Positions 3,165-55,880 of a stretch of 64,000 nt of DNA are shown here, in pieces; the first letter of the stretch is position 1; each line of letters opens with the position of its first letter. Made by a program: the position numbers and the translations under genes. The stretch spans positions 1 through 64,000 of the forward strand of contig JACGCM010000983.1 in assembly GCA_014058105.1 (NCBI GenBank). The letters run 5' to 3'. This DNA is from Kingdonia uniflora (lineage: Eukaryota; Streptophyta; Magnoliopsida; Ranunculales; Circaeasteraceae). The notes below the pieces were generated by a model. That model was given only the letters and a program-made list of their open reading frames with translations, had not been told where the DNA came from and did no database searches.

Positions 3165-3460
3165 TAGAGCTTGGGGCTTGAGTTTGCTGTGTTGATGCCC
3201 TAGTTTTTCTTGGGGCTTGAGTAGCTTGAGACTACCTTTGGGCTTGACTTGCTTGACTTTTCCTTAGACCTTGAGTAGCTTGAGACTTCCTTTGGGCTTA
3301 ACTTGCTTGACATTGTCTTGGGCTTTGAGTAGCTTGAGACTGCCTTTAGGCTTGACTTGCTTGACTTTGCCTTGGGCCTTGAGTAGCTTGAGACTGCCTT
3401 TGGGCTTAACTTTATTGACTTTGCCTTGGGGCTTTAGTAGCTTGAATTTGCCTTGATTGA
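3165..3460 (-). repeat. 54-bp tandem repeats in the transposase C-terminal tail
   Basis: The phrase GAGTAGCTTGAGACT recurs at about 3219, 3273, 3327 and 3381, exactly 54 bp apart, with decayed copies to 3600. A 54-bp period equals 18 codons, so the repeat keeps the reading frame. On the minus strand one frame reads Lys-rich units containing KVKPKGSLKLLKAQ. It lies just downstream of the transposase core and probably encoded a basic low-complexity tail. Confidence 0.7.
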
Positions 3461-3588
3461 GTTTACCTTAGGCCTTAAGTAACTTTAGTTTACCTTGAAT
3501 GAGTTTACCTTGGGGCTTGAACCCACTGTGTTGATGCCCTAGTTTTCCTTGGGGCCTGACTTGGCCTTAGGGCTTGAGTAGCTTGAGT

Positions 3589-15412: not shown

Positions 15413-15649
15413 ACTTGAATTATGATAACGAGTACCTTTTGTAATTAGCAGATATTGATGCTTCAGTGCTCGATGTAGGCCTTTGAGAGGAGCATTATAA
15501 TTTGAAATGTTGATATGAGAAACTAATATTTCTACACCTGCAGTAGATGTTATTCTCTGGTTTGACCCATAGAATTAGAAGAAGTCCGCGGGTATAGAAG
15601 TAAGTATTATTTGTGCTTCAACCCTTGGACTTTAGGGAGGCTTAACGAC

Positions 15650-16425
15650 ATCGAGCAAGTTTTTTCCTCACTCGTGCTTTAGGCGTGCTATCTTCAGGCT
15701 AAGAGGTTTATTATGTCCCCCGCCTTCGGATGTATGAGTATCCTCAGGAGTTAGGCTAGTATTATCTATGCCATTACCAATATTGGATGTTGGAGCTTAT
15801 CGGCAGCGAGCAAGTTTTTTCCTCACTCGTGCATTAGGCTTGTTATCATCAGGCTAAGAGGTTCGTTATGGCCCCCGCCTTCGGATGTATGAGTATCCTC
15901 AGGAGTTAGGCTAGTATTATTTATACCATTACCAATGTTGGATGTTGGAGCTTATCGGCAGCGGGCAAGTTTTTTCCTCACTCGTACTTTAGGCTTGTTA
16001 TCTTTAGGCTAAGAGGTTCGTTATGGCCCCCGCCTTCGGATGTATGAGTATCCTCAGGAGTTAGGCTAGTATTATTTATGCCATTACCAATGTTAGATGT
16101 TAGAGCTTAGCAGCAGCGAGCAAATTTTTTCCTCAATCGTACTTTATGCTTGTTATCTTCAGACTAAGAGGTTTGTTATGGCCCCTGCCTTCAGAGTATG
16201 AGTATCCTCAGGAGTTAGGCTAGTATTTTTTATGCCATTACCAATATTGGATGTTGGAGCTTAGCGGCAGCGAGCAAGTTTTTTCCTCACTCGTGCTTTA
16301 GGCTTGTTATCTTCAGGCTAAGAGGCTCGTTATGGCCTCCGCCATCGGATGTATGAGTATCCTCAGGATTTAGGCTAGTATTATCTATGTAATTACAAAT
16401 GTTGGATGTGGCTTACCTTAAGGGA
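15650..16425. repeat. Five 155-bp tandem repeats in the 3' region of element A
   Basis: The phrase GAGCAAGTTTTTTCCTCACT starts at 15653, 15808, 15963, 16118 and 16272, a period of 155, 155, 155 and 154. Each unit also carries GCCCCCGCCTTCGGATGTAT and GAGTATCCTCAGGAGTTAGG. The array sits exactly between the converging 3' ends of gene L and integrase. Tandem arrays in this part of Tat/Ogre elements are known as seeds of plant satellite DNA. Confidence 0.92.
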
Positions 16426-32654: not shown

Positions 32655-32972
32655 TCAACCATTGCGATTTTAAACTGTCGTGCGGGTTCTTAACCTTGTT
32701 TTCTCAATAAAAATTCACTTCTAACATATACGTAAGCCATGACACATAAATTTGGACTTCAAGGGCCTTGGCACTATCAAGACTTGGCACAATAAGGACT
32801 TGACACATATTACCAAGACAAATATAGAAAACTTTCATGAATCTCACCAAATTGCAAAAGTCACCTATTATTATCTTTCCTACCTTGGTATCTTCTTCGT
32901 CTTTCTTTCTTTGTGTTGCTCTCTGAAACTTATTCAAATAGTCCTGCATACACTTCCTCTAATAAGATAGGA
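32655..32972 (+). promoter_or_regulatory. Upstream region of CYP72A copy 1, duplicated
   Basis: From ACCATTGCGATTTTAAACTG onward this region is almost identical to 35831-36161 ahead of copy 2, including the stretch up to the start codon. It marks the left limit of the tandem duplication and probably holds the promoter. I see no unambiguous TATA box. Confidence 0.55.
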
Positions 32973-35428
32973 ATGGGAGAAACTCTGGTTGTTTCCCTTA
33001 TAATTTGCGCAGTTTCTGTAATTTTATGGGCAGTGAAGGTTTTGTACATAATATGGTGGACACCGAAGAAACTGGAAAGGGCACTGAGGAAACAAGGGAT
33101 TGAAGGTCCTCCATATAAGCTGTTCTTTGGAAATATGAAAGAAAACTTTGGTATGGCCAAAGAAGCATGGTCTAAACCGATGAATCTTTCACATAATATC
33201 GCTCCACGCATTCTCCCTTTTGCCCTTCAAACAGTCGAGAAATATGGTATGGAAGCTTATTATTTAGTTTCTTTAAGAAATTTATTGTTTTAGGAAATGC
33301 TTGAGTAGTTTAGTGTAAAAATAGTGGTGGGGGTGTAGAAGCTTATGGCAATACAAAAAACTCGAAATAATAATCTTGACAGACTATGCCCCGGTTAGTC
33401 GGAAATAGTTGCGTTTTTAAGATAATTGAACATATTAGTTAACTGATGAGACAGACTTATGATATCTTTGACTGAATTGTTACTCAGGTAAGCTATCTGT
33501 TATTTGGTACGGAGCGATTCCGAGGGTAACCATAATGGAACCAGATCTCATAAGAGATGTATTGTCAAATAAGTTTGGACATTTTCCCAAACCCAAATCT
33601 AACCCACTTGTAAGGTATTTTGCAACTGGGCTTTCAACCTACAATGGTGAACAATGGGCAAGCACAGAAGGATTCTAAACCCTGCTTTCCATCAAGAGAA
33701 GTTAAAGGTGAATTTTTCTCACTTGCGGTCTTGTTCTCAAAAAAAAAAAAAAATCATCTCCTAAAGCCAACGGTTGCATTGCTTAAAGCTTACTATGTTT
33801 TGTTTATTTGTTTTGGTGGTTATAGCGGATGTTGCCGGCATTTTATACCAGCTGTAGTGAGTTAGTAAGCAAATGGGACACATTGATCACAGCAGAGGAA
33901 GGGTCGTGTGAATTGGACGTTTGGCCAGAACTCCAGAATTTAACTGGAGATGTCATCTCTCGGACAGCCTTTGGCAGCAGCTTTGAAGAAGGAAGACGTA
34001 TATTCCAACTGCAAACTGAACAAGCAGAGCTTGCAATACAAGCTATTCAGTCTGTATACATCCCTGGTTCTAGGTATATATGCTTAATAATTCTTATATA
34101 TAATTCTGATAAGCAGATTAGGAGATTGAGAGAAGCTTAAATTTGTTCGAATATACGAGTTGGGATTTTTAGCCAGCCAAGGAGAACATGTTCTTTAATC
34201 CGTAAGAAGATCTATTTAAATTCTATTACATTTTTTTAGAGTCCTCTCTTCAGCTTGTTCTTGGTCTAACCAAAATGTGAGATATCAAATATACTGTCGA
34301 GATATATAGCCACACATTGGGCAAATCAGGCCTAGCACCTCAAAATATAAGATCTTGTGGCTACTCCTCTTGCCAATTGGTTTTGAGATAGAACCTCTAA
34401 CTCTAATATGGTATCAGAGCGGGGATTTTCTTCCACCTGTTGTGGGGTAACTCCTCTCATTGCCAGTTGATTTTGAGAGGGAACCATACTCTAGTACTGA
34501 TCAGCTAGTTCTGAACTGGATTAACTTGTGTGTAGATTTTTGCCGACAAAGAGAAATACCAGAATGAAGGAGATTGACAAAGAAGTACGGGTTCTCTTGA
34601 CAGATATAATACACAAGAGAGAACAGGCTACTAAAGTTGGGGAATCTACCAATGGCGACTTACTGGGTTTGATGATGGAGTCCAACTTTAAAGAGATAAA
34701 AGAAAATAACGGATCTAAGAAACTCGGAATGAGTTTACATGAGATTATCGAGGAATGCAAGCTATTTTACTTTGCAGGGCAAGAAACCACGTCAACTTTG
34801 CTTGTTTGGACAATGGTTGCGTTAAGTATGCATCCAGAATGGCAAGTGCTTGCAAGGGAAGAAGTCCTTCAAATTTTCGAGCATAGAGCACCTGAGTTTG
34901 ATGAGCTGACTCATCTAAAGATTGTGAGTATTCCTCTTTTTACAATATTTTTTTTAAAGTAAATATCGATTTCTGGTAACTTTCTGAACATATTCATTTG
35001 AAGGTACCCATGATTTTGTACGAAGTCCTTAGATTATACCCACCGCTTGTTCTGCTTACGCGGCGTACTGACAAGGAATGAAACTAGGAAAAATAATTTT
35101 GCCAGCAGGTGTTGGAGTCGCATTGCCAATACTTTTCATTCATCATGATCGTGAAATTTGGGGAGAAGATGTTGATCAATTCAATCCAGAAAGGTTTCGC
35201 AAAGGAGTTTCAAATGCAACTAAGAATCAAGTCTCCTTCTTCCCATTTGGTTGGGGTCCAAGGATATGTATAGGACAGAATTTTGCTATGGTAGAAGCGA
35301 AGATGGCTTTGACGATGATTCTGCAACATTTCTCATTCGAGCTTTCACCCACTTATGCTCATGCTCCTTGGACTGTCATTACAATTCAACCTCAATATGG
35401 TGCTCAAATTATTCTTCGTAAAATATGA
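32973..35428 (+). pseudogene. CYP72A: CYP72A-type cytochrome P450, copy 1, two frameshifts
   Basis: Five exons with GT-AG borders: 32973-33246, 33488-33707, 33826-34073, 34536-34923, 35004-35428. The start (MGETLVVSLI) opens an N-terminal membrane helix followed by WWTPKKLERALRKQGIEGPP, the CYP72A hallmark. The I-helix has AGQETTS, the K-helix YEVLRLYPP (ExxR intact), and the haem loop [10 protein letters not shown] with the Cys ligand. Exons total 1555 nt. Two one-base deletions relative to copy 2, near 33661 (giving an early TAA) and near 35078, would restore 1557 nt, or 518 codons, the normal length. CYP72As are ER-bound monooxygenases acting on terpenoids and hormones. If the sequence is right this is a pseudogene. 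Confidence 0.88.
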
Positions 35429-36161
35429 CATTTTCTTGTGCGTTTACTTCGTAATGCGTTGTGATAAATCCAATAGTATTCTTGTCGAAAACCTCTAGTA
35501 TATGATCTGTTAATCGAGTGCTGTCGCATTGCATCAGATAATCTACATTACAATGGTTTGGTCTACATGCTCCCACATACTTGAACATTCATTAATTCTT
35601 TTCTTTTAGCTCCTTGTTTCAACTTCTTGTAAAGAAACACCAATGGTTTGGTCTAACTAGATAGTACCATAGCTGTAGGAGAAGCCACGCCTATTTTTTG
35701 GAAGGCATTGAAGAACAATTGGGAGAGGGATGGACCGTTCTTAACATTGAAATTCAGATCCATCCATCCATGAATTGTTCTCAACGTTGGCAGAAATATG
35801 AAAGTTGAAATTCATCCAGGTTAAATTTCTCAACCATTGCGATTTTAAACTGTCGTGCGTAGCACGGGTTCTTAACCTTTTTTTCTCAATAAAAATCCAC
35901 TTCTAACATATACGTAAGCCATGACACATAAATTTGGACTTCAAGGGCCTTGGCACTATCAAGACTTGGCACAATAAGGACTTGACACATATTACCAAGA
36001 CAATATATATATAGAAAACTTTCATGAATCTCACCAAATTGCAAAAGTCACCTATTTATTATCTTTTCCTACCTTGGTATCTTCTTCGTCTTTCTTTCTT
36101 TGTGTTGCTCTCTGAAACTTATTCAAATAGTCCTGCATACACTTCCTCTAATAAGATAGGA
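35429..36161. other. Spacer between the CYP72A copies
   Basis: 3' flank of copy 1 followed, from about 35829, by the duplicated upstream block of copy 2. No other gene is visible. TATATATA lies at about 36004-36011. Confidence 0.6.
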
Positions 36162-38903
36162 ATGGGAGAAACTCTGGTTGTTTCCCTTATAATTTGCGCA
36201 GTTTCTGTAATTTTATGGGCAGTGAAGGTTTTGTACATAATATGGTGGACACCGAAGAAACTGGAAAGGGCACTGAGGAAACAAGGGATTGAAGGTCCTC
36301 CATATAAGCTGTTCTTTGGAAATATGAAAGAAAACTTTGGTATGGCCAAAGAAGCATGGTCTAAACCGATGAATCTTTCACATAATATCGCTCCACGTAT
36401 TCTCCCTTTTGCCCTTCAAACAGTCGAGAAGTATGGTATGAAACTTATTATTCTCTTTAAGAAATTTATTGTTTTAGTAAAGGTTTTTATAGTTTAGTGT
36501 AAGACTAGTGACGTGCAGGCTTAGAATCAGCAGCAGGCTAGGTATAGCTAATGTAGCAATCCAAATGTTTTAAAAATTTCTTTTTCAGGATTGCTCAAAT
36601 GGCACTTCTATTCATAAAATTAGTGGCTATTTCTGACGATGTTGTCATGCTCATAATTTATCAGGGCCACACGTTTAATATTGTAAAATTGGTTTTGTGT
36701 GTATAATATGTTTTTATTTAATAAAAAATGTTGTGCGCCAACTTATTTAGCGCAGGTTATTTATTTATTTATTTTATTATTTTTAATTAAAAATATATAT
36801 AATAATATTGTGTGCCACTTGAATTGGTTGGTTGATGCTTACGTAGCAATACAAAAAAGTCGACCTAATAATCTTGACAGGCTAGGCCTCGGTTAGTCTG
36901 AAATAGGTTATTTTTTAAGATAATTTATAATTAAGTTAACTGATGAGGCAGACTTATGATATCTATAACTGAATTGTTACACAATAATACAGGTAAGCTA
37001 TCTGTTATTTGGTACGGAGCGGTTCCAAGGGTGACCATTATGGAACCAGATCTCATAAGAGATGTATTATCAAACAAGTTTGGACATTTTCCCAAGGTTA
37101 AGCATATCCCACTTGTAAGGCTTATTGCAACTGGGCTCGCAAACTACGAAGGTGAACAATGGGCAAAACACAGAAGGATTCTCAACCCAGCTTTTCATCA
37201 AGAGAAGTTAAAGGTAAATTTTTCTCACTTGTGATCTTCTCCTCAAAATCTTTTTTATCTTTTAATGAATAAAGCTTACTGTGTTTTCGTTTATTTGTTT
37301 TGGTGGTCATAGAGGATGTTACCGGCATTTTACACCAGCTGTACTAAGTTAGTAAGCAAATGGGACACGTTGATTACAGCAAAGGAAGGGTCGTGTGAAT
37401 TGGACATTTGGCCAGAACTCCAGAATTTTACTGGAGATGCCATCTCCCGGACAGCCTTTGGTAGCAGCTTTGAAGAAGGAAGACGAATATTCCAACTCCA
37501 AACTGAACAGGCAGAGCTCGCCATACAAGCTATTCAGTCCGTATATATTCCTGGCTATAGGTATGCTTATAATTCTTATATATTCTGATAAGCAGATTGA
37601 GAGATGTCTAAATTTATCCAATTATACAAGTTCGGATTTTTAGCCAGCCAAGGAGAACATGTTCTTTAATCTGTAATGAGATCTATTTAAATTCTATCAC
37701 ATTTTTTCAGAGTCCTTTCTTCAGCTTGTTTTGGTCTGACCAAAACGTCAGATCTCTAATGTACTGTATGTTGAGATATACAGTCTCACATTGGCCAAAT
37801 CAAGCATAGCACCTCAAAATATAAAATCCTCCGGCTAATTCTCAAATTGCCAATTGATTTTGAGATGGAAGCTCTGGTATGTTGTAATATGGTATAATAA
37901 TAAATCATGGGGCTAGTCTTCTTATTGGCAGTTCTGAGATGGAACCTCCTGTATTAATACTCTAGTACTCTTCATCTAGTTCTGATGAGCTGGATTCACT
38001 TGTGTGCAGGTTTTTGCCGACAAAGAGAAATATCAAAATGAAGGAGACTGTCAAAGAAATACGGGCTCTCGTGACAGATATAGTATACAAGAGGGAACAT
38101 GCCATTAAGGCTGGGGAAGCTAGTAATGGTGACATACTGGGTTTGATAATGGAGTCCAACTTTAAAGAGATTAAAGAAAATAACGGATCTAAGAAACTGG
38201 GAATGAGTTTACATGAGATTATCGAGGAATGCAAGCTATTTTACTTTGTAGGGCAAGAAACCACGTCTACTTTGCTTGTATGGACAATGGTTGTGTTAAG
38301 TATGCATCCAGAATGGCAAGTGCTTGCAAGAGAAGAAGTCCTTCAAATTGTTGGGCGAAGAGCACCAGAGTTTGATGAGCTGACTCATCTAAAGATTGTG
38401 AGTATTCCTCTTCTTACAATCTTTTTTTTAACGTAAATATCGATTTCTGATAACTTTCTGGACATATTCATTTGAAGGTACCCATGATTTTGTACTAAGT
38501 CCTTAGATTATACCCACCCATCGTAAGCATTACGCGGCGTACTTACAAGGAGATGAAACTGGGAAAAATAATTCTGCCAGCAGGTGTACAAGTCGCATTA
38601 CCAACACTCCTCATTCATCATGATCGTGAAATTTGGGGAGAAGATGTTGATGAATTCAATCCAGAAAGATTTCGCAACGGAGTTTCAATGGCAACTAAGA
38701 ATCAAGTCTCTTTCTTGCCATTTGGTTGGGGTCCTCGAATATGTCTTGGACAAAATTTTGCTATGGTAGAAGCAAAGATGGCATTGACAATGATTCTCCA
38801 ACATTTCTCATTCGAGCTTTCACCCACCTATTCTCATGCTCCTTTCACGGTCGTAACAATTCAACCTCAACATGGTGCTCAAATTATTCTTCGTAAATTA
38901 TAA
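36162..38903 (+). pseudogene. CYP72A: CYP72A-type cytochrome P450, copy 2, nonsense in the K-helix
   Basis: Five exons match copy 1: 36162-36435, 36993-37213, 37313-37560, 38010-38397, 38478-38903. They total 1557 nt, or 518 codons plus stop, the normal family length. Exon 1 is nearly identical to copy 1, while later exons differ more. The haem loop reads [10 protein letters not shown] and the I-helix VGQETTS. Exon 5 reads VPMILY, then TAA at 38496-38498 exactly where copy 1 has GAA for the Glu of ExxR, so codon 384 is a stop. The product would lack the haem-binding loop. Exon 2 keeps WAKHRRILNPAFH, broken in copy 1. Intron 1 has about 320 bases more than in copy 1. Probable pseudogene unless the stop is a sequencing error. 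Confidence 0.88.
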
Positions 38904-39096
38904 CATTTTCTTCTACCCACTGTTTACTTTGTAATGGGTGTTGATAAATCCAAAAGTATTGATCTTGTCGAATATATTATAACTAAGAAAACCTCAAGGG
39001 CTTTTTTGAGGCGATTTTGAAATGTGAAAGAATATATTATAACTAAGTATATCTTTTAATTTTGTCTCCAAGGCAATTTTGAGGCGATTTTGAAAC
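38904..39096. other. Spacer before the copia element
   Basis: 3' flank of copy 2. AATATATTATAACTAAG occurs twice (38972 and 39031) and GAGGCGATTTTGAAA twice (39008 and 39081), a short direct duplication. GAAAC at 39092-39096 is the copia target duplication. Confidence 0.6.
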
Positions 39097-48938: not shown

Positions 48939-49675
48939 ATACCATACTTTTTCTTTACCACCTGAATTCTAAGAATTCGATAGGGATGGCAATGGGACGG
49001 ATTTGGGGCGGGGGAGCTAATCCCATCCCCATCACCAGTTAGGATTCAACCCCCCATCCCCGCCTCAATACCCGTTTAAGTTAAACGGGGATCCCCAAAT
49101 CCGCCCCACCTTACAAAGCCTAATCCCAGACCCGCCCCATCCCCGCCCCATTTAACTATTACTTTTTTTAAAATAGTATGCAAAAAAACATTCAAAAACC
49201 ATAATTCAGAATTCAGAAAGCAGAAAGAAGAAAGAAAAAAATAAGAAAAGAAGGGTTATGTACATTGTACAAAACTATGGCAGCCAAAGCTTCATTCCTT
49301 TAAGTATTCATTACAGACTGCCAAAGACATTTTACTTCAACCTTATAAATTTCTATCTATATAAACTCAACTATTGCTTACATTCATATATGGATATTGG
49401 ATGGACTTAATCTGGGCATTGCTTTACAAATCAAAACTATGGCAGTTGAAGTGGAAATAAGCCTCATTCTTTCCACCCCTTATGTTCTTTGACCTGCACT
49501 CTTTAGCAAACACTTGATTCAATGCTTTGAGGACCGCAAACAATCACACCCACGTCTACATGGCCCCAACTCTCACAGACACTATCAAAAATTTCTGGAC
49601 AAAGGAAACAAATATTTCCTGGTGAAATCAGACAAATGTTCATTTAGTACAATCTATAAACAGTAGGTTATGTAC

Positions 49676-49773
49676 TTACCTCCGAAATCTGGTCCGTAGC
49701 CGTAACGCGTAGTAGTGAAAGTAGCCCTGATATGGATTATTACTATACTGCATATCACCTCTGCCACCCTCAC
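49676..49773 (-). other. Possible further captured fragment, Gly/Tyr-rich
   Basis: After the BI-1 exon the minus strand reads MQYSNNPYQGYFHYY and, one frame over, RYGYGPDFGG ending at GGAG-GTAAGT, a perfect donor at about 49679. The composition suggests the Gly/Tyr-rich tail of an RNA-binding protein, with one frameshift. I cannot name the donor gene. Confidence 0.3.
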
Positions 49774-49960
49774 CTCAAACTTGAACGTAGCAGCAGATCC
49801 TCCAAAAATAGAGGAAGCGAAGTGCAACTAAAAGAGGATGGAGAGCCCAGATGAAAGCAGGCCTCCCAAGTAAAGGTATTCCCGACGCTTTGCCAACATG
49901 GCTGCTGCTGAGAAGCAACCAAACGCTATCGCTGTCCCCACAAATGCGGTTATTAATATG
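49774..49960 (-). pseudogene. BI-1: Captured BAX INHIBITOR-1 exon
   Basis: One 187-nt exon with acceptor CTGCAG before 49960 and donor GTGAGG after 49774. It reads ILITAFVGTAIAFGCFSAAA, MLAKRREYLYLGG, LLSSGLSILF, a TAG in place of Trp, then LHFASSIFGGSAATFKFE. This is the middle transmembrane section of plant BI-1, an ER-membrane suppressor of cell death (TMBIM family), with its conserved RRREYLYLGG loop. The next exon (LYFGLL...) is not found downstream. Only a fragment was captured, and the Trp-to-stop change (TGG to TAG) shows decay. Confidence 0.9.
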
Positions 49961-50614
49961 CTGCAGGACACAGGAAGCGGGTATTTTTAGTCTGATCACA
50001 ACTTCAACTAGCATTTCTACTGAATTTTGACCAACAAATAGCAGCACCAAAAAATCCTAAGTAGCATGTTCTATTCCCCCTACTGCATTTATATTGACTC
50101 AAAAGTAACTAGAATATTGATAATAACAAAAACTCCACTAGAAGTACCATTTCTTGCTATCTAGAATACGCAAACTCAGCATAATACAACTCAAATACAA
50201 AGCCAATATCTTGCTATCTAGAACGTTTAACTGCAACTATGCAGTATACAACGTCAGCACATAATTACAGTCCAAAAAAGATCCCTTCTCCAGACTGTAC
50301 AGTGATAGATACTGGATACTTCAAACTTCCGAGCCAAGTGAACATGAAAGTAAGAAGATCAAGTTGGTGAGCTGGCTTCTACACAGATCTATATTAGCAT
50401 CTATATTGCTTTTATGTACAACCACCAAACAAAGTAATCTTACATTAACAAACTTCAGGAGAGAGTAGACTTTCAGCGGAAGCCAAATTAGATGGGAGTT
50501 CAGATGTATCAAAGAGACTAAAGAAAAAAAAACTCTAAAATAGGCACTTAATGAGTATATTAAAGTCACTGGTAACAATACTTTAATATCAGATAATCCT
50601 ACAGTAAGTATTTG

Positions 50615-50692
50615 TCAGGACCCATTATTAGCGAGTGGGGCATCAGTTTTATTCAAATGAACGATCTTGAACTTTTGTATCAAAGGAAGAAT
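50615..50692 (-). pseudogene. Captured O-fucosyltransferase exon 2
   Basis: After acceptor GCAATCAG the minus strand reads ILPLIQKFKIVHLNKTDAPL and ANNGS, then TGA. It continues the preceding exon exactly as in plant O-fucosyltransferase family proteins (…LLQKYKVVHL, RTDARLANNG). The host sequence stops after NNG, giving a chimeric end. Confidence 0.85.
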
Positions 50693-50780
50693 CTGATTGC
50701 AAAACAATTCAGAAGTCATTTAAGAATGGGTGAGTGGAGAAATAAAATGAAAACATTCCAAGCAGTAGTAGGAAATGAAC

Positions 50781-50969
50781 CTGATGAAGGTAGTAAGAAA
50801 TATCTGACCAACTAATGGGTGGCATTGAATAGAACATTCCGAGCTCAACTCTTCTCTTGAGCCTTGGTGGCAGCTCTTTCAATATCCGTACTTGATCTCT
50901 CAAGGATGTAATGAAATGATCAACATCAAATATGTCTTGGAGCTCACTGAATAAAGACTCGAAAGGATC
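50781..50969 (-). pseudogene. Fused coatomer / O-fucosyltransferase exon
   Basis: A 189-nt exon (acceptor GGGGCAG before 50969, donor CAG-GTTCAT at 50780). The first 24 bases complete coatomer beta-prime: joined to the previous exon's TG they read W-ILSSLYS. Then the sequence becomes O-fucosyltransferase in a different frame ([53 protein letters not shown]). O-fucosyltransferases of this plant family are Golgi type II membrane glycosyltransferases. The join lies near TTCAGTGAG, a shared short stretch. In the coatomer frame a stop follows about 17 codons later. Confidence 0.85.
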
Positions 50970-51056
50970 CTGCCCCAAACAAAGTTGAACACAAATTACA
51001 CATCACAAGTGACAACATAGTTACTCTTCTAATGTGATCTAATCAAGTAAAAATAC

Positions 51057-51317
51057 CATGGCTCCGTCGGGTGAAGATCCACACATTTCACTCTTTCAGA
51101 TCTTTGAGCAAGTTTCCTCTGATCCAAATCAAAACAAAAGGGTTACCAATCAAACACATTACAACAAATCAAAGAGATTAAGATCCAAAATACCTTGATT
51201 TCAAATTTCAGAGGCTGTTTCATCATCACAACATGCAACAATTCAGAGAAAAATAGATCAAAAATCTATTCAAATCAAAGCATAATTTCACCAGATCTGG
51301 CGATGAAATCTTACCAT
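51057..51317 (-). pseudogene. Captured coatomer beta-prime 5' exons
   Basis: Three exons on the minus strand: 5' UTR ending in the ATG at 51317-51315 followed by GTAAG; 51214-51194 reading PLKFEIK; and 51118-51057 reading RKLAQRSERVKCVDLHPTEP plus TG of Trp. Together they give the N-terminus of coatomer subunit beta-prime (COPI coat, first WD40 repeat). Splice phases fit perfectly into the fused exon at 50969. The UTR and probably the promoter (to about 51600) were taken along, so the chimera could be transcribed. Confidence 0.9.
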
Positions 51318-51550
51318 TTCGATGAAGAAATCAAGAGAAACTGACTTGTTTTGATGAGGAGACGAGAATTTGGGATTTTGGTGTGAGATCGGAGAAACAA
51401 AGCTCGAAAATGTTGGTGTGTTTTATCTTTGTATATAGTGGGATGGGAGTAACAAAGAAACAGTTCTTTGATTTCTCTAATTCTTTGATTTTAAATTGCA
51501 TCTAAAGAATTGTTGGGTACTTGGGTTTGGTTTGGGGAGAGACAGGTTTC

Positions 51551-51586
<36 letters not shown>

Positions 51587-51821
51587 ATTAGGGTTTTCTT
51601 TTTTTAATTCTACTATATATACAGGGGTATAAAAGTAAAAGTATTATATGAGGCGGGGCGGATAAACGATTTATCCAAGCTCAGTCCCAAATTCGCCCCA
51701 ATCCCCGACGGATTTAACCAAACTTGGCCCGACCCGCCCCCATACCCAATATAGTCATCCCAAATCCTCTCCAAATGGGGCGGGGTGGGGCAAATTGTCA
51801 TCCCTAGAATCTGATGACAAA

Positions 51822-53579: not shown

Positions 53580-54640
53580 TCTCACGCAGCAAAACTCTTG
53601 AAAGCATAACAATTACAGCAAGAACCAACTCCAACATTCGAGCAACATAATATTGAGGTAGTGGACTCTTTTGAACTCAATGGGCCCAGGCAAAATACCT
53701 TCATTGGATCAAAACTGTCATTTAATGAAAAAGAAACCATGATACAACTTCTAAATAAAAACGTCGACATCTTTGCATGATCTTTTTAAGAAATGCCCGA
53801 CATTGACCCCTCGATAGCATGCCACAAGCTCAACCTCCTTCCTGATAGCAAAGCAGTTGTACAAAAGCATCGCAATTTAGCCCTCCGCCTTCGCGAGGCA
53901 GTTAATGAAGAAATTGATAAACTCTTTCGTGTAGGATTTATTCGAGAAGCAAAATATCCCAAATAGGTGTCTAATATCATTGTTGTACCAAATATGAATG
54001 GGAAAAATCAGAGTTTGCGTAGATTTTGCATTGCCAAACAAATTTACACCAAAGGACAACTTCCCCCTCCCTCTAATTCCAATACTCCCCGATTCTGTAG
54101 CAGGGCACGAACTTCTCTCGATGATAAATGCAACGTCCGGTTATAATTAGGTTCCTCTCACCAAAGAATTCCAAGAAAAAGCAACATTCGTAACAGAAAG
54201 AGGTCTTTACTGTTACACAATTATGCCTTTTGGGTTGAAAAATACAGGAGCCACTTATTAGTGACTTGTCACCCACATGTTCAAAGATCATTTAGGTAAA
54301 ATTATGGAAGTATAGATCGATGATATGATCTGCAAAAGCTTACGGCGAGAAGATCATTGTAACAATCTCCAGATAATCTTCGACATCCTACGTACTTACC
54401 AAATGAACTCAAACCCAAAAAAGCCAATTTGGTGTTGCATCGAGTAAATTTTTGGGCCATTTGGTTAGTAAAAGGGGAATAGAGATTGATCTGGCTCAAA
54501 TCAATGTACTCATGGCAATGTCATCTCCTCAAACCAAAAAAGATGTATAGAAGCTTGCTGGCAAGATTACAGCTCTTCATAAGTTCATTTCTAAGTCATC
54601 TGATCGATGCAAACTTCTTTACCTCATTCTCCTTGGAGAT
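53580..54640 (+). pseudogene. Reverse transcriptase of element B
   Basis: Order of motifs across shifting frames: MPDIDPSIACHKLNL, RLREAVNEEIDKLFRVGFIR, REAKYPK-stop-VSNIIVVP, a YCYTIMPFGLKNTG-like LYCYTIMPFGLKNTGA around 54210, IDDMICKSLRREDHC with the YxDD pair preceded by a stop (54313), and FLGHLVSKRGIEIDL around 54450. The catalytic Asp pair survives but at least four frame changes do not. It would copy element RNA into DNA. Confidence 0.8.
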
Positions 54641-54649
54641 CCAGCTCCA

Positions 54650-55021
54650 ATGTCCAAAAACCAGCCCAAAGAAATTATTTGGACCCCCGATAGTGAGTTC
54701 GCTTTCCATGATCACAAAAGATACTTAGGGCGTCCTCCCGTAATGAGTACTCCTGTCAATGGCAAAACACTGACAATATGCTTATCAACCACGGATGATT
54801 CCATTAGCTTTGTCCTTATTAGGGAAGATGATGGTATGGAAAAACCAATCTACTTCATCAGCAAAACTCTCATGCCTGCTGAAAAAAGATATACAACAAC
54901 TGAAAAGCAGCTCCTCGCCTTGGTATACAGCTCTCAAAAACTTCGACCCCATTTCCAGGCTCATCCCAACAAAATTATTACCAAGTTTCCTCTCAAACTT
55001 GTACTCTTTAAAAAGAAATAA
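54650..55021 (+). pseudogene. First RNase H of element B
   Basis: PPVMSTPVNGKTLTICLSTT, SFVLIREDDGMEKPIYFISK and YTTTEKQLLALVYSSQKLRP: the ordinary Ty3/gypsy RNase H tether after reverse transcriptase. Ends in TAA at 55019. Confidence 0.85.
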
Positions 55022-55034
55022 TCTCAAAGAATTC

Positions 55035-55880
55035 AGCAATGGTCTGTATTCCTCGGCGAATATGACATCTCCTTCGAACCTCAGATATCGATCAAAGGAC
55101 AAGCAGTAGCCAATTTTTTGGCTGACTTTCCAGTTGAAGACCCTGAATAGGAAGAACTTGAAGAAGTACTGGCCGATGATTCCATAGCAGAACTGGATGC
55201 CTGGTCACAAAGCACAGGATGACGACTTTTTACAGATGGATCTGCTGGACCACAAGGAGCAGGGATCGACATCGTCCCCGTTACACCATCCAATCATCAA
55301 ATTGAAAAAGCTATCAAACTTAAATTTTATGCAACCAACAATGAAGCCAAGTATGAAGCTATCTTACATGGATTAGATATCGCTATAACACTGGGAGCTG
55401 ATGAAACAGTTGTTTACGTCGATTCCTTACTTGTTGCCAACCATAACAATAAAACATTTAAAATATCAGGCAAGATGGTTGATTACGTAGCTCTAATCAA
55501 AGAGAAAATGAAGAAATTTAAAATAGCAACAATCTTCTATCTCTCTCGGGCTGAGAATCGCCATGCTGACACATTAGCATACATTGCAGTAATATTCGAA
55601 GGCAGTAAAAAAAGAACTTTAGACATCAAAGTCATCGAACATTCTAGTCTCGACGTAAGCTACACCATGCAGATCCATGCCACTGAAGACGAAGATCCTA
55701 AAGATTGGAGAAGACCATTTTATGCATACCTTAATTCCAGCATCCTCCCAAGTAACAAAGAAGAAGCCCGATCGCTTTTAGCAAAATTTCCTCGATTCAT
55801 AGTTCAGAATAAAATCTTATATCGCATCACAGAAGGAGGACCACTTATTGAATGTATCTCACATAAACAAGCACAAATCT
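55035..55880 (+). pseudogene. Second (archaeal-type) RNase H of element B
   Basis: AVANFLADFPVEDPE, TAG (Trp in A), LFTDGSAGPQGAGIDIV with the catalytic Asp present, NNEAKYEAILHGLDIAITLG, VYVDSLLVANH, FYLSRAENRHADTLAYIA. Then the linker DWRRPFYAYLNSSILPSN and NKILYRITEGGPLIECIS leading to integrase. This extra aRNH domain is the Tat-lineage hallmark. Element A kept only this RNase H. Confidence 0.88.

Follow-up and report, generated by a model that had tools for sequence, protein, structure and literature searches.

A 64,000-bp stretch of the Kingdonia uniflora genome (Ranunculales, Circaeasteraceae; assembly GCA_014058105.1, contig JACGCM010000983.1, positions 1 to 64,000; hereafter the window) contains, at 48981..51806, a non-autonomous hAT transposon whose interior is built from fragments of four unrelated host genes; the same genome also has relatives that carry none of these fragments, one, three or all four. 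Judging from the sequences, we consider it quite probable that this is a Pack-hAT within a large hAT family of Kingdonia, in which unlinked genes were captured serially by template-switching repair and the products were later mobilised. The element is a gene shuffler, ordinary in kind and unusual in how completely its history can be read. How plant DNA transposons collect exons of far-apart genes is not settled. Here, cargo-free, one-, three- and four-gene stages occur together with the donors in one genome, making the order of events and the junctions readable and the two main models of capture comparable; relatives that preserve earlier steps help to show how such elements gather far-apart genes.

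What identifies the element as a hAT? Its 2826 bp lack a transposase and are bounded by short terminal inverted repeats (TIRs), TAGGGATGGCAAT at 48981..48993 on the plus strand and TAGGGATGACAAT at 51794..51806 on the minus strand, which match at 12 of 13 positions. G/C-rich subterminal repeats extend from the left TIR to about 49160 and occupy the right side from about 51650. The CCCGCCCC/GGGGCGGG motifs occur three times in the left 180 bp and twice in the right 180 bp, and neither count was reached in any of 1000 single-letter shuffles. The flanks, GAATTCGA (48973..48980) and GAATCTGA (51807..51814), are identical at six of eight positions. The region has a second copy at a distance of 75 kb (locus L013), where the left flank, GAATCCGA, differs from either of these two flanks by a single C>T change; the simplest reading of the near-duplication is therefore an 8-bp target-site duplication (TSD) that has decayed. 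The initial annotation had proposed a hAT element at these coordinates on the basis of hAT-like ends and an 8-bp near-duplication; the TIRs, the flanks and the existence of same-ended relatives all bear it out. Among the 14 mapped elements with both ends, the window copy included (7 others lack one end), 7 have perfect TSDs, 3 have one mismatch and 3 (window, L025 and L027) have two. The hAT transposase domains (BED finger, RNase-H-like and hAT dimerisation) are found in the relative L023 and not in the window copy, which was presumably mobilised in trans.

The cargo between these ends derives from a ferric reductase, a BAX inhibitor-1 (BI-1), an O-fucosyltransferase and a coatomer beta-prime gene, all sense on the minus strand and with introns kept. 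From left to right, the element end is followed by ferric reductase, the filler TATC, BI-1, the filler GGAC, O-fucosyltransferase, coatomer beta-prime, a short copy of O-fucosyltransferase sequence and the right end. Fragment 1 (49302..49752) is the 3' end of an FRO-type ferric-reductase gene, 83% identical over 497 alignment columns to its donor L034; it consists of exon pieces at 49680-49752 and 49424-49618 and then the 3' untranslated region (UTR), with a frameshift before the last ~25 codons. By itself this fragment (64 aa) had no Pfam match, and its name is taken from the donor, whose exons match FAD_binding_8 (4e-9) and NAD_binding_6 (6e-6). TATC (49753..49756) recurs in all six other BI-1-bearing copies compared. 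Fragment 2 (49757..50617) is a BI-1 exon (49774-49960; Bax1-I in Pfam, 1.5e-9) with its upstream intron, 94% identical over 861 columns to L016, and GGAC (50618..50621) separates it from fragment 3 according to the donor alignments. Fragment 3 (50622..50949) holds two O-fucosyltransferase exons (50945-50781 and 50692-50622) and the intron between them, 96% identical over 335 columns to contig C1146, with a protein match to O-FucT in Pfam (7.4e-13). Fragment 4 (50950..51460) is the 5' part of coatomer beta-prime, 90% identical over 551 columns to C1563 (4e-20 against solved structures in the PDB); it includes the upstream region, the 5' UTR, the start codon (51317-51315) and the first exons, among them 51214-51194, 51118-51057 and 50969-50950. 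On its far side, comparison with the donor reveals an 18-bp copy of O-fucosyltransferase donor sequence (51464..51481). All four donor identities lie far above chance.

The initial annotation had recognised three captured genes in this cargo. Its coatomer beta-prime, O-fucosyltransferase and BI-1 identities are upheld by the protein searches above, as is its claim of GT-AG borders (6/6 introns examined), while the fourth gene, ferric reductase at 49302-49752, had been missed. The stretch it gave to O-fucosyltransferase, 50781-50969, is an exon of that gene only as far as 50945, since the donor alignments assign 50950-50969 to coatomer, as the first bases of its exon 4. At its other end the O-fucosyltransferase piece runs to 50622 and not, as had been annotated, to 50615. 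The BI-1 exon stands as described, with the addition of an in-frame TAG at 49830-49828.

Where did these fragments come from? The donor segments are L034 2824-3318 (ferric reductase), L016 2095-2932 (BI-1; GIB67_012477, annotated Bax inhibitor 1), L032 3086-3420 (O-fucosyltransferase) and the 5' part of the gene in L028 (coatomer), and the four donor loci are on different contigs. Censuses of individual fragments, whose first-look candidate step may miss very common words, separated element copies from genes. All 11 BI-1 candidates were scored, giving 8 loci in elements and 3 BI-1 gene loci; of the latter (C579, C1794 and C1858), the C579 copy has an in-frame stop and the C1794 copy is GIB67_012477. 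The 12 O-fucosyltransferase candidates, all scored, comprise 11 in elements and a single donor locus on C1146, and the 10 coatomer candidates, likewise all scored, comprise 8 in elements, the donor on C1563 and one weak relative on C720. From the whole-element search, at least three nearly identical ferric-reductase donor-like loci were recovered (C2676, C2666 and C2437).

The initial annotation had held that unrelated host genes were captured at the DNA level, and had allowed that a finding of the three genes side by side in the genome would instead point to one simple duplication. A single segmental duplication that took in four adjacent genes, or else an assembly error, has some circumstances in its favour, as the window region is itself duplicated (~23 kb at ~97% on the same contig), and the ferric-reductase donor and a BI-1 copy, which lie 13 and 29 kb from the ends of C2676 and C579 respectively, might in principle be neighbours. 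Yet the donors of coatomer and O-fucosyltransferase and the annotated BI-1 gene occupy separate contigs, with 500 kb or more between each of them and the nearest contig end, and copies of the chimera at other loci have perfect TSDs of their own, which refutes a single duplication; we assign this explanation a negligible probability. Capture through RNA, by retroposition, is similarly hard to credit: we found nothing in support of it, and it is refuted by the introns and upstream DNA that are kept and align to the donors.

Are the steps of this capture preserved elsewhere in the genome? A whole-element search gave at least 52 matches (40 of 1455 first-look candidates scored); 30 loci were fetched, with a few small additions, and 21 elements were mapped, namely the window copy, L009-L012, L014, L017, L018, L020-L027, L029-L031, A37 and A38. 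The donors and same-ended copies for which the initial annotation had proposed a genome search were both found. L029, L030 and L031 have a common flank, GCTTTCCA, and are counted as one insertion; L017 is a truncated copy; L013, the duplicate of the window element with its right part missing, lies outside the 21 and was used only in donor, divergence and codon comparisons. The mapped elements form a ladder, from transposase-bearing copies without this cargo to copies with ferric reductase, then with BI-1 and O-fucosyltransferase, and then with coatomer. On the lowest rung, A37 (5639 bp, TSD 7/8) and A38 (5767 bp, TSD ACTGGGGA on both sides) contain transposase-region sequence and none of the four-gene cargo, and read straight through at the place where ferric reductase is inserted in others. 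The seven copies with ferric reductase only (L021-L027) all keep donor sequence beyond position 3318 (to 3389-3536), whereas all eight BI-1-bearing copies break off at 3318. One of the seven, L023 (5452 bp, TSD CGTGGTAG), still has matches to zf-BED (4e-4), a hAT-like RNase-H (1e-25) and Dimer_Tnp_hAT (2e-25) in separate open stretches. Two others, L025 and L027, have an extra common stretch of 762 bp (95% alike) beside a cut in the ferric-reductase piece, and 393 bp of it are in L024.

L011 and L014 represent the stage with BI-1 and O-fucosyltransferase and no coatomer. In L011 (5417 bp, TSD AGGCTATT) these two fragments occupy the place of L023 743-1411, and part of the transposase region is retained, without an open frame of 150 residues. 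All four fragments are present in the window copy, L009 and L010. L012 seems to have lost coatomer while keeping the junction scar, and from five copies (L018, L020 and L029-L031, three of them with a common flank) fragment 1 and BI-1 seem to have been largely lost, a 32-bp vestige of fragment 1 being kept. The O-fucosyltransferase/coatomer junction is fuller and lies further out in these five than in the window copy, which relative to them has an internal deletion of ~1.1 kb. Because earlier stages hold donor sequence that is absent from later ones, gain of new pieces by replacement explains the direction of change more simply than loss does, and the order of capture appears to have been ferric reductase, then BI-1 and O-fucosyltransferase, then coatomer. 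The cargo also moved: L009 (four fragments, TSD CTAGCCAT twice), L011, L014, L018 and L020 have TSDs of their own, so cargo-bearing forms were mobile.

Trees were built from the element ends alone, leaving out the cargo and rooted at the midpoint, and that of the left ends agrees with this ladder, though with weak inner forks. The left-end tree splits A37 and A38 from the 19 others (97/95) and groups the 12 copies with BI-1 and/or O-fucosyltransferase (96/91), of which 11 are also together in the right-end tree (97/97). Noncoding divergence from the donors is 0.115-0.181 for fragment 1 and 0.029-0.062, 0.035-0.058 and 0.045-0.066 for the other three (for O-fucosyltransferase, in copies with at least 84 noncoding sites, thus leaving out L018, L020 and L029-L031, which have 2); the higher value of fragment 1 fits an older first capture.

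How was foreign DNA inserted into the interior of the element? Six of the seven ferric-reductase-only copies have an island of element sequence, CTGCACAGCTAACAACTTCACTT, inside the captured exon of fragment 1; it is exact in L023 and A38 and differs by one to five changes in the other copies, and the seventh, L026, is deleted at the site. The exact match in L023 is 23 bp long, whereas none of 2930 control comparisons exceeded 11. At the middle 8 bp of the island the donor has only a T, and this site is bordered in donor and element alike by CTGCACAG and TTCACTT, one to each side, microhomologies of 7-8 bp. Such an island between microhomologies would fit the trace expected of a polymerase switching between donor and element. 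Beside coatomer, a short duplication occurs in all five copies tested (window 18 bp, L009 23, L020 20, L018 15 and L010 13), with control maxima of 8-11 in ~2900 comparisons each. Right ends without coatomer share 6 bp of it in six of seven cases, and L012, read as a case of coatomer loss, shares 17. A short flanking duplication is an expected outcome of staggered-break repair. Two joints have the 4-bp fillers described above, and the fragment 3/4 junction falls inside coatomer exon 4. A 14-bp repeat near the left end (49270 and 49432) was considered as a templated filler and set aside, since the filler has only 9-11 bp in common with the ferric-reductase donor, and 4 of 500 shuffles also attain 14 bp.

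Template-switching repair synthesis would be the likeliest source of these marks. The element would be broken internally, for example once its sister copy had been excised (hAT excision as the trigger is our guess from established knowledge), and repair synthesis would jump, by way of short microhomology, to unlinked host genes and then return. Every such event would replace part of the interior and leave the ends intact, and the product could still move. The early captures would have happened while transposase sequence was still present in the copies concerned, with later internal deletions producing the short forms.

Fusion of neighbouring insertions, in which two nearby hAT insertions surround host DNA and their outer ends then move as one (the Pack-TYPE model of Gisby and Catoni), is the main rival and seems unlikely to us by comparison with the patterns seen here, despite its standing elsewhere. 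According to the available text of PMC8903248, it has support in other superfamilies and is said to suit Pack-hATs as well, and a maize Pack-PIF cluster gained a second gene fragment in a step. An internal position of recently gained DNA is also expected under it, and the ferric-reductase donor locus has a hAT-like end, CAGGGATGGCAA, at ~1.2 kb from the part that was captured. That end, however, begins with C and does not adjoin the captured stretch, and it is the only candidate among the inner-end remnants or local insertions sought beside the donors. Across 8 elements, the 100 bp to each side of 45 junction positions, counting both edges of each filler, contained no TIR-like 12-mer (at most two mismatches), in a search that mutated or deleted inner ends would escape. 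Moreover, fusion needs pairs of insertions at unlinked loci, while the new pieces here replace interior sequence, and neither the island in the captured exon nor the short flanking duplication is expected from it.

Several observations weigh against serial capture by template-switching repair as we have set it out. Transposition and repair are both read from sequence. L010 has no matching TSD (3/8 ungapped; 1 of the 14 two-ended elements). Most inner forks of the trees are weak and the root is a midpoint, the right-end tree leaves A37 and A38 among the copies with ferric reductase only, and neither tree unites the coatomer-bearing copies in a single clade. In L010 the duplication beside coatomer is weak, at 13 bp where controls reach 11; it is shorter in L029-L031, outside the five copies tested, and 11 bp of it occur in the right part of L014, which is without coatomer. 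A37 and A38 hold a fragment of a long interspersed nuclear element (LINE) elsewhere (zf-RVT, LINE-like; A38 815-1990) and are therefore not the literal ancestor. No full-length copy with BI-1 and without O-fucosyltransferase was found, so the two may have been gained in one event or two. Finally, the ferric-reductase donor used could be a paralogue of the true one.

Could the chimera instead be a host gene under selection? The public gene set annotates the window copy as GIB67_019435, 'O-fucosyltransferase family protein' (P0033; 49828..51086 on the minus strand, 140 aa), with exons 51086-51057, 50969-50781, 50692-50622 and 49960-49831 and a stop at 49830-49828; the translated exons equal P0033 letter for letter. 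This model and that of L010 (GIB67_005663; P0032, 227 aa, O-fucosyltransferase family) keep O-fucosyltransferase and BI-1 in their native frames, and the upstream region and start codon of coatomer are carried along, so the element could be transcribed. Nevertheless, divergence among copies is alike in coding and noncoding sequence (0.060/0.041 for BI-1, 0.026/0.022 for O-fucosyltransferase and 0.044/0.050 for coatomer), and the ratios of nonsynonymous to synonymous change are 0.80, 0.84 and 1.94 on small counts (26/11, 13/4 and 7/1). There was thus no sign, on these small counts, of purifying selection on an open frame in the three fragments covered. In four copies (window, L009, L011 and L014) stop codons interrupt exons of BI-1 or O-fucosyltransferase, and the coatomer start codon runs into a stop soon after the junction. 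Given the similar divergences, the change ratios and the stop in the window BI-1 exon, no protein function is likely, and we regard a selected chimeric gene as very improbable. The common orientation of the four fragments (4/4) was not used as a sign of selection, as it would arise by chance in 1 of 8 cases. The findings also call for caution in annotation: transposon copies stand as genes in the public set, where at least four family members are listed (P0009, P0031, P0032 and P0033), two of them as O-fucosyltransferase family proteins.

How does the element compare with known systems? Pack-MULEs and gene-carrying Helitrons likewise combine several host gene fragments in one element, but belong to other superfamilies with other TSDs and ends. 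We found no literature on hAT transposons of Kingdonia or on hAT transduplication of multiple genes, in a search that mostly did not cover subscription journals and is no proof of absence. Pack-hATs of maize and rice share with the Kingdonia element the hAT ends, the 8-bp TSD and the host gene fragments inside a non-autonomous element; in the text available of that work, acquisition is explained by fusion of neighbouring insertions and the stepwise gain of two fragments is described for the maize Pack-PIF cluster (PMC8903248), whereas in Kingdonia four unlinked genes are found in one hAT together with its earlier states, including transposase-bearing ones. Transduplication by hATs was already published for grapevine, where Hatvine-6 has transposase-bearing copies with a variable part matching genic exons and introns elsewhere; the accessible portion of that report gives no capture order, cargo-free parent or junction analysis (PMC2528002). 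Animal Pack-TIRs, attributed to gap filling with template switching, resemble our case in their breakpoint microhomology, and hATs are their commonest source (208/370). As far as the open sections of that study go, most of them occur as single copies and they often lie no more than 15 kb from the gene of origin (PMC8277862), unlike the Kingdonia copies, which have several unlinked donors per element and were multiplied by transposition. A 2026 review states, in the part available, that an alternative mechanism for capturing unlinked gene fragments may exist, undiscovered (PMC13317346). Whether the Kingdonia family supplies this missing route, by serial replacement-type capture through template-switching repair in transposase-carrying copies followed by transposase loss, seems to us evenly balanced.

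Other members suggest that this family gathers separate loci repeatedly. A search with the left end gave at least 40 matches (40 of 1104 candidates scored), from which four further loci were fetched (L043-L046, with L045 and L046 sharing cargo and flank). L045 (C2114:110191-112310) is a second mosaic hAT of the family, with 1433 bp of cargo derived in part from a bromodomain gene. Its cargo pieces match at least four other places (the C2571 group, C35/C2323, C945 and C2014; 29/29 candidates scored), so multi-locus capture happened at least twice in the family, and neighbouring pieces overlap by 16, 3 and 4 bp. The cargo has seven near-full copies, itself included, whose 96-100% likeness indicates that the mosaic is probably young. 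The bromodomain fragment of L045 and L046 matches at 1e-14. L043 (C2510:1701282-1702492) is a 1211-bp member with a perfect TSD, CTACCAAC, and a fragment of a RING-H2 gene (zf-RING_2, 8e-15), and L036 has a right end only.

The window lies on a contig of 188,313 bp (C1716) in an assembly of 1.0 Gb and 2693 contigs, and the segmental duplication pairs window 39778-63491 with C1716:115092-137700, to the extent fetched. The element sits in or beside a long terminal repeat (LTR) retrotransposon, with matches to RT_RNaseH_2 and RVT_3 at 54551-55018 and 55223-55879. Elsewhere in the window, 32655-38972 is a duplicated cytochrome P450 gene region whose pieces are 84-95% alike (p450, 8.6e-35 at 38499-38900), and 15640-16409 is a tandem array of ~155-bp units that are ~90% alike.

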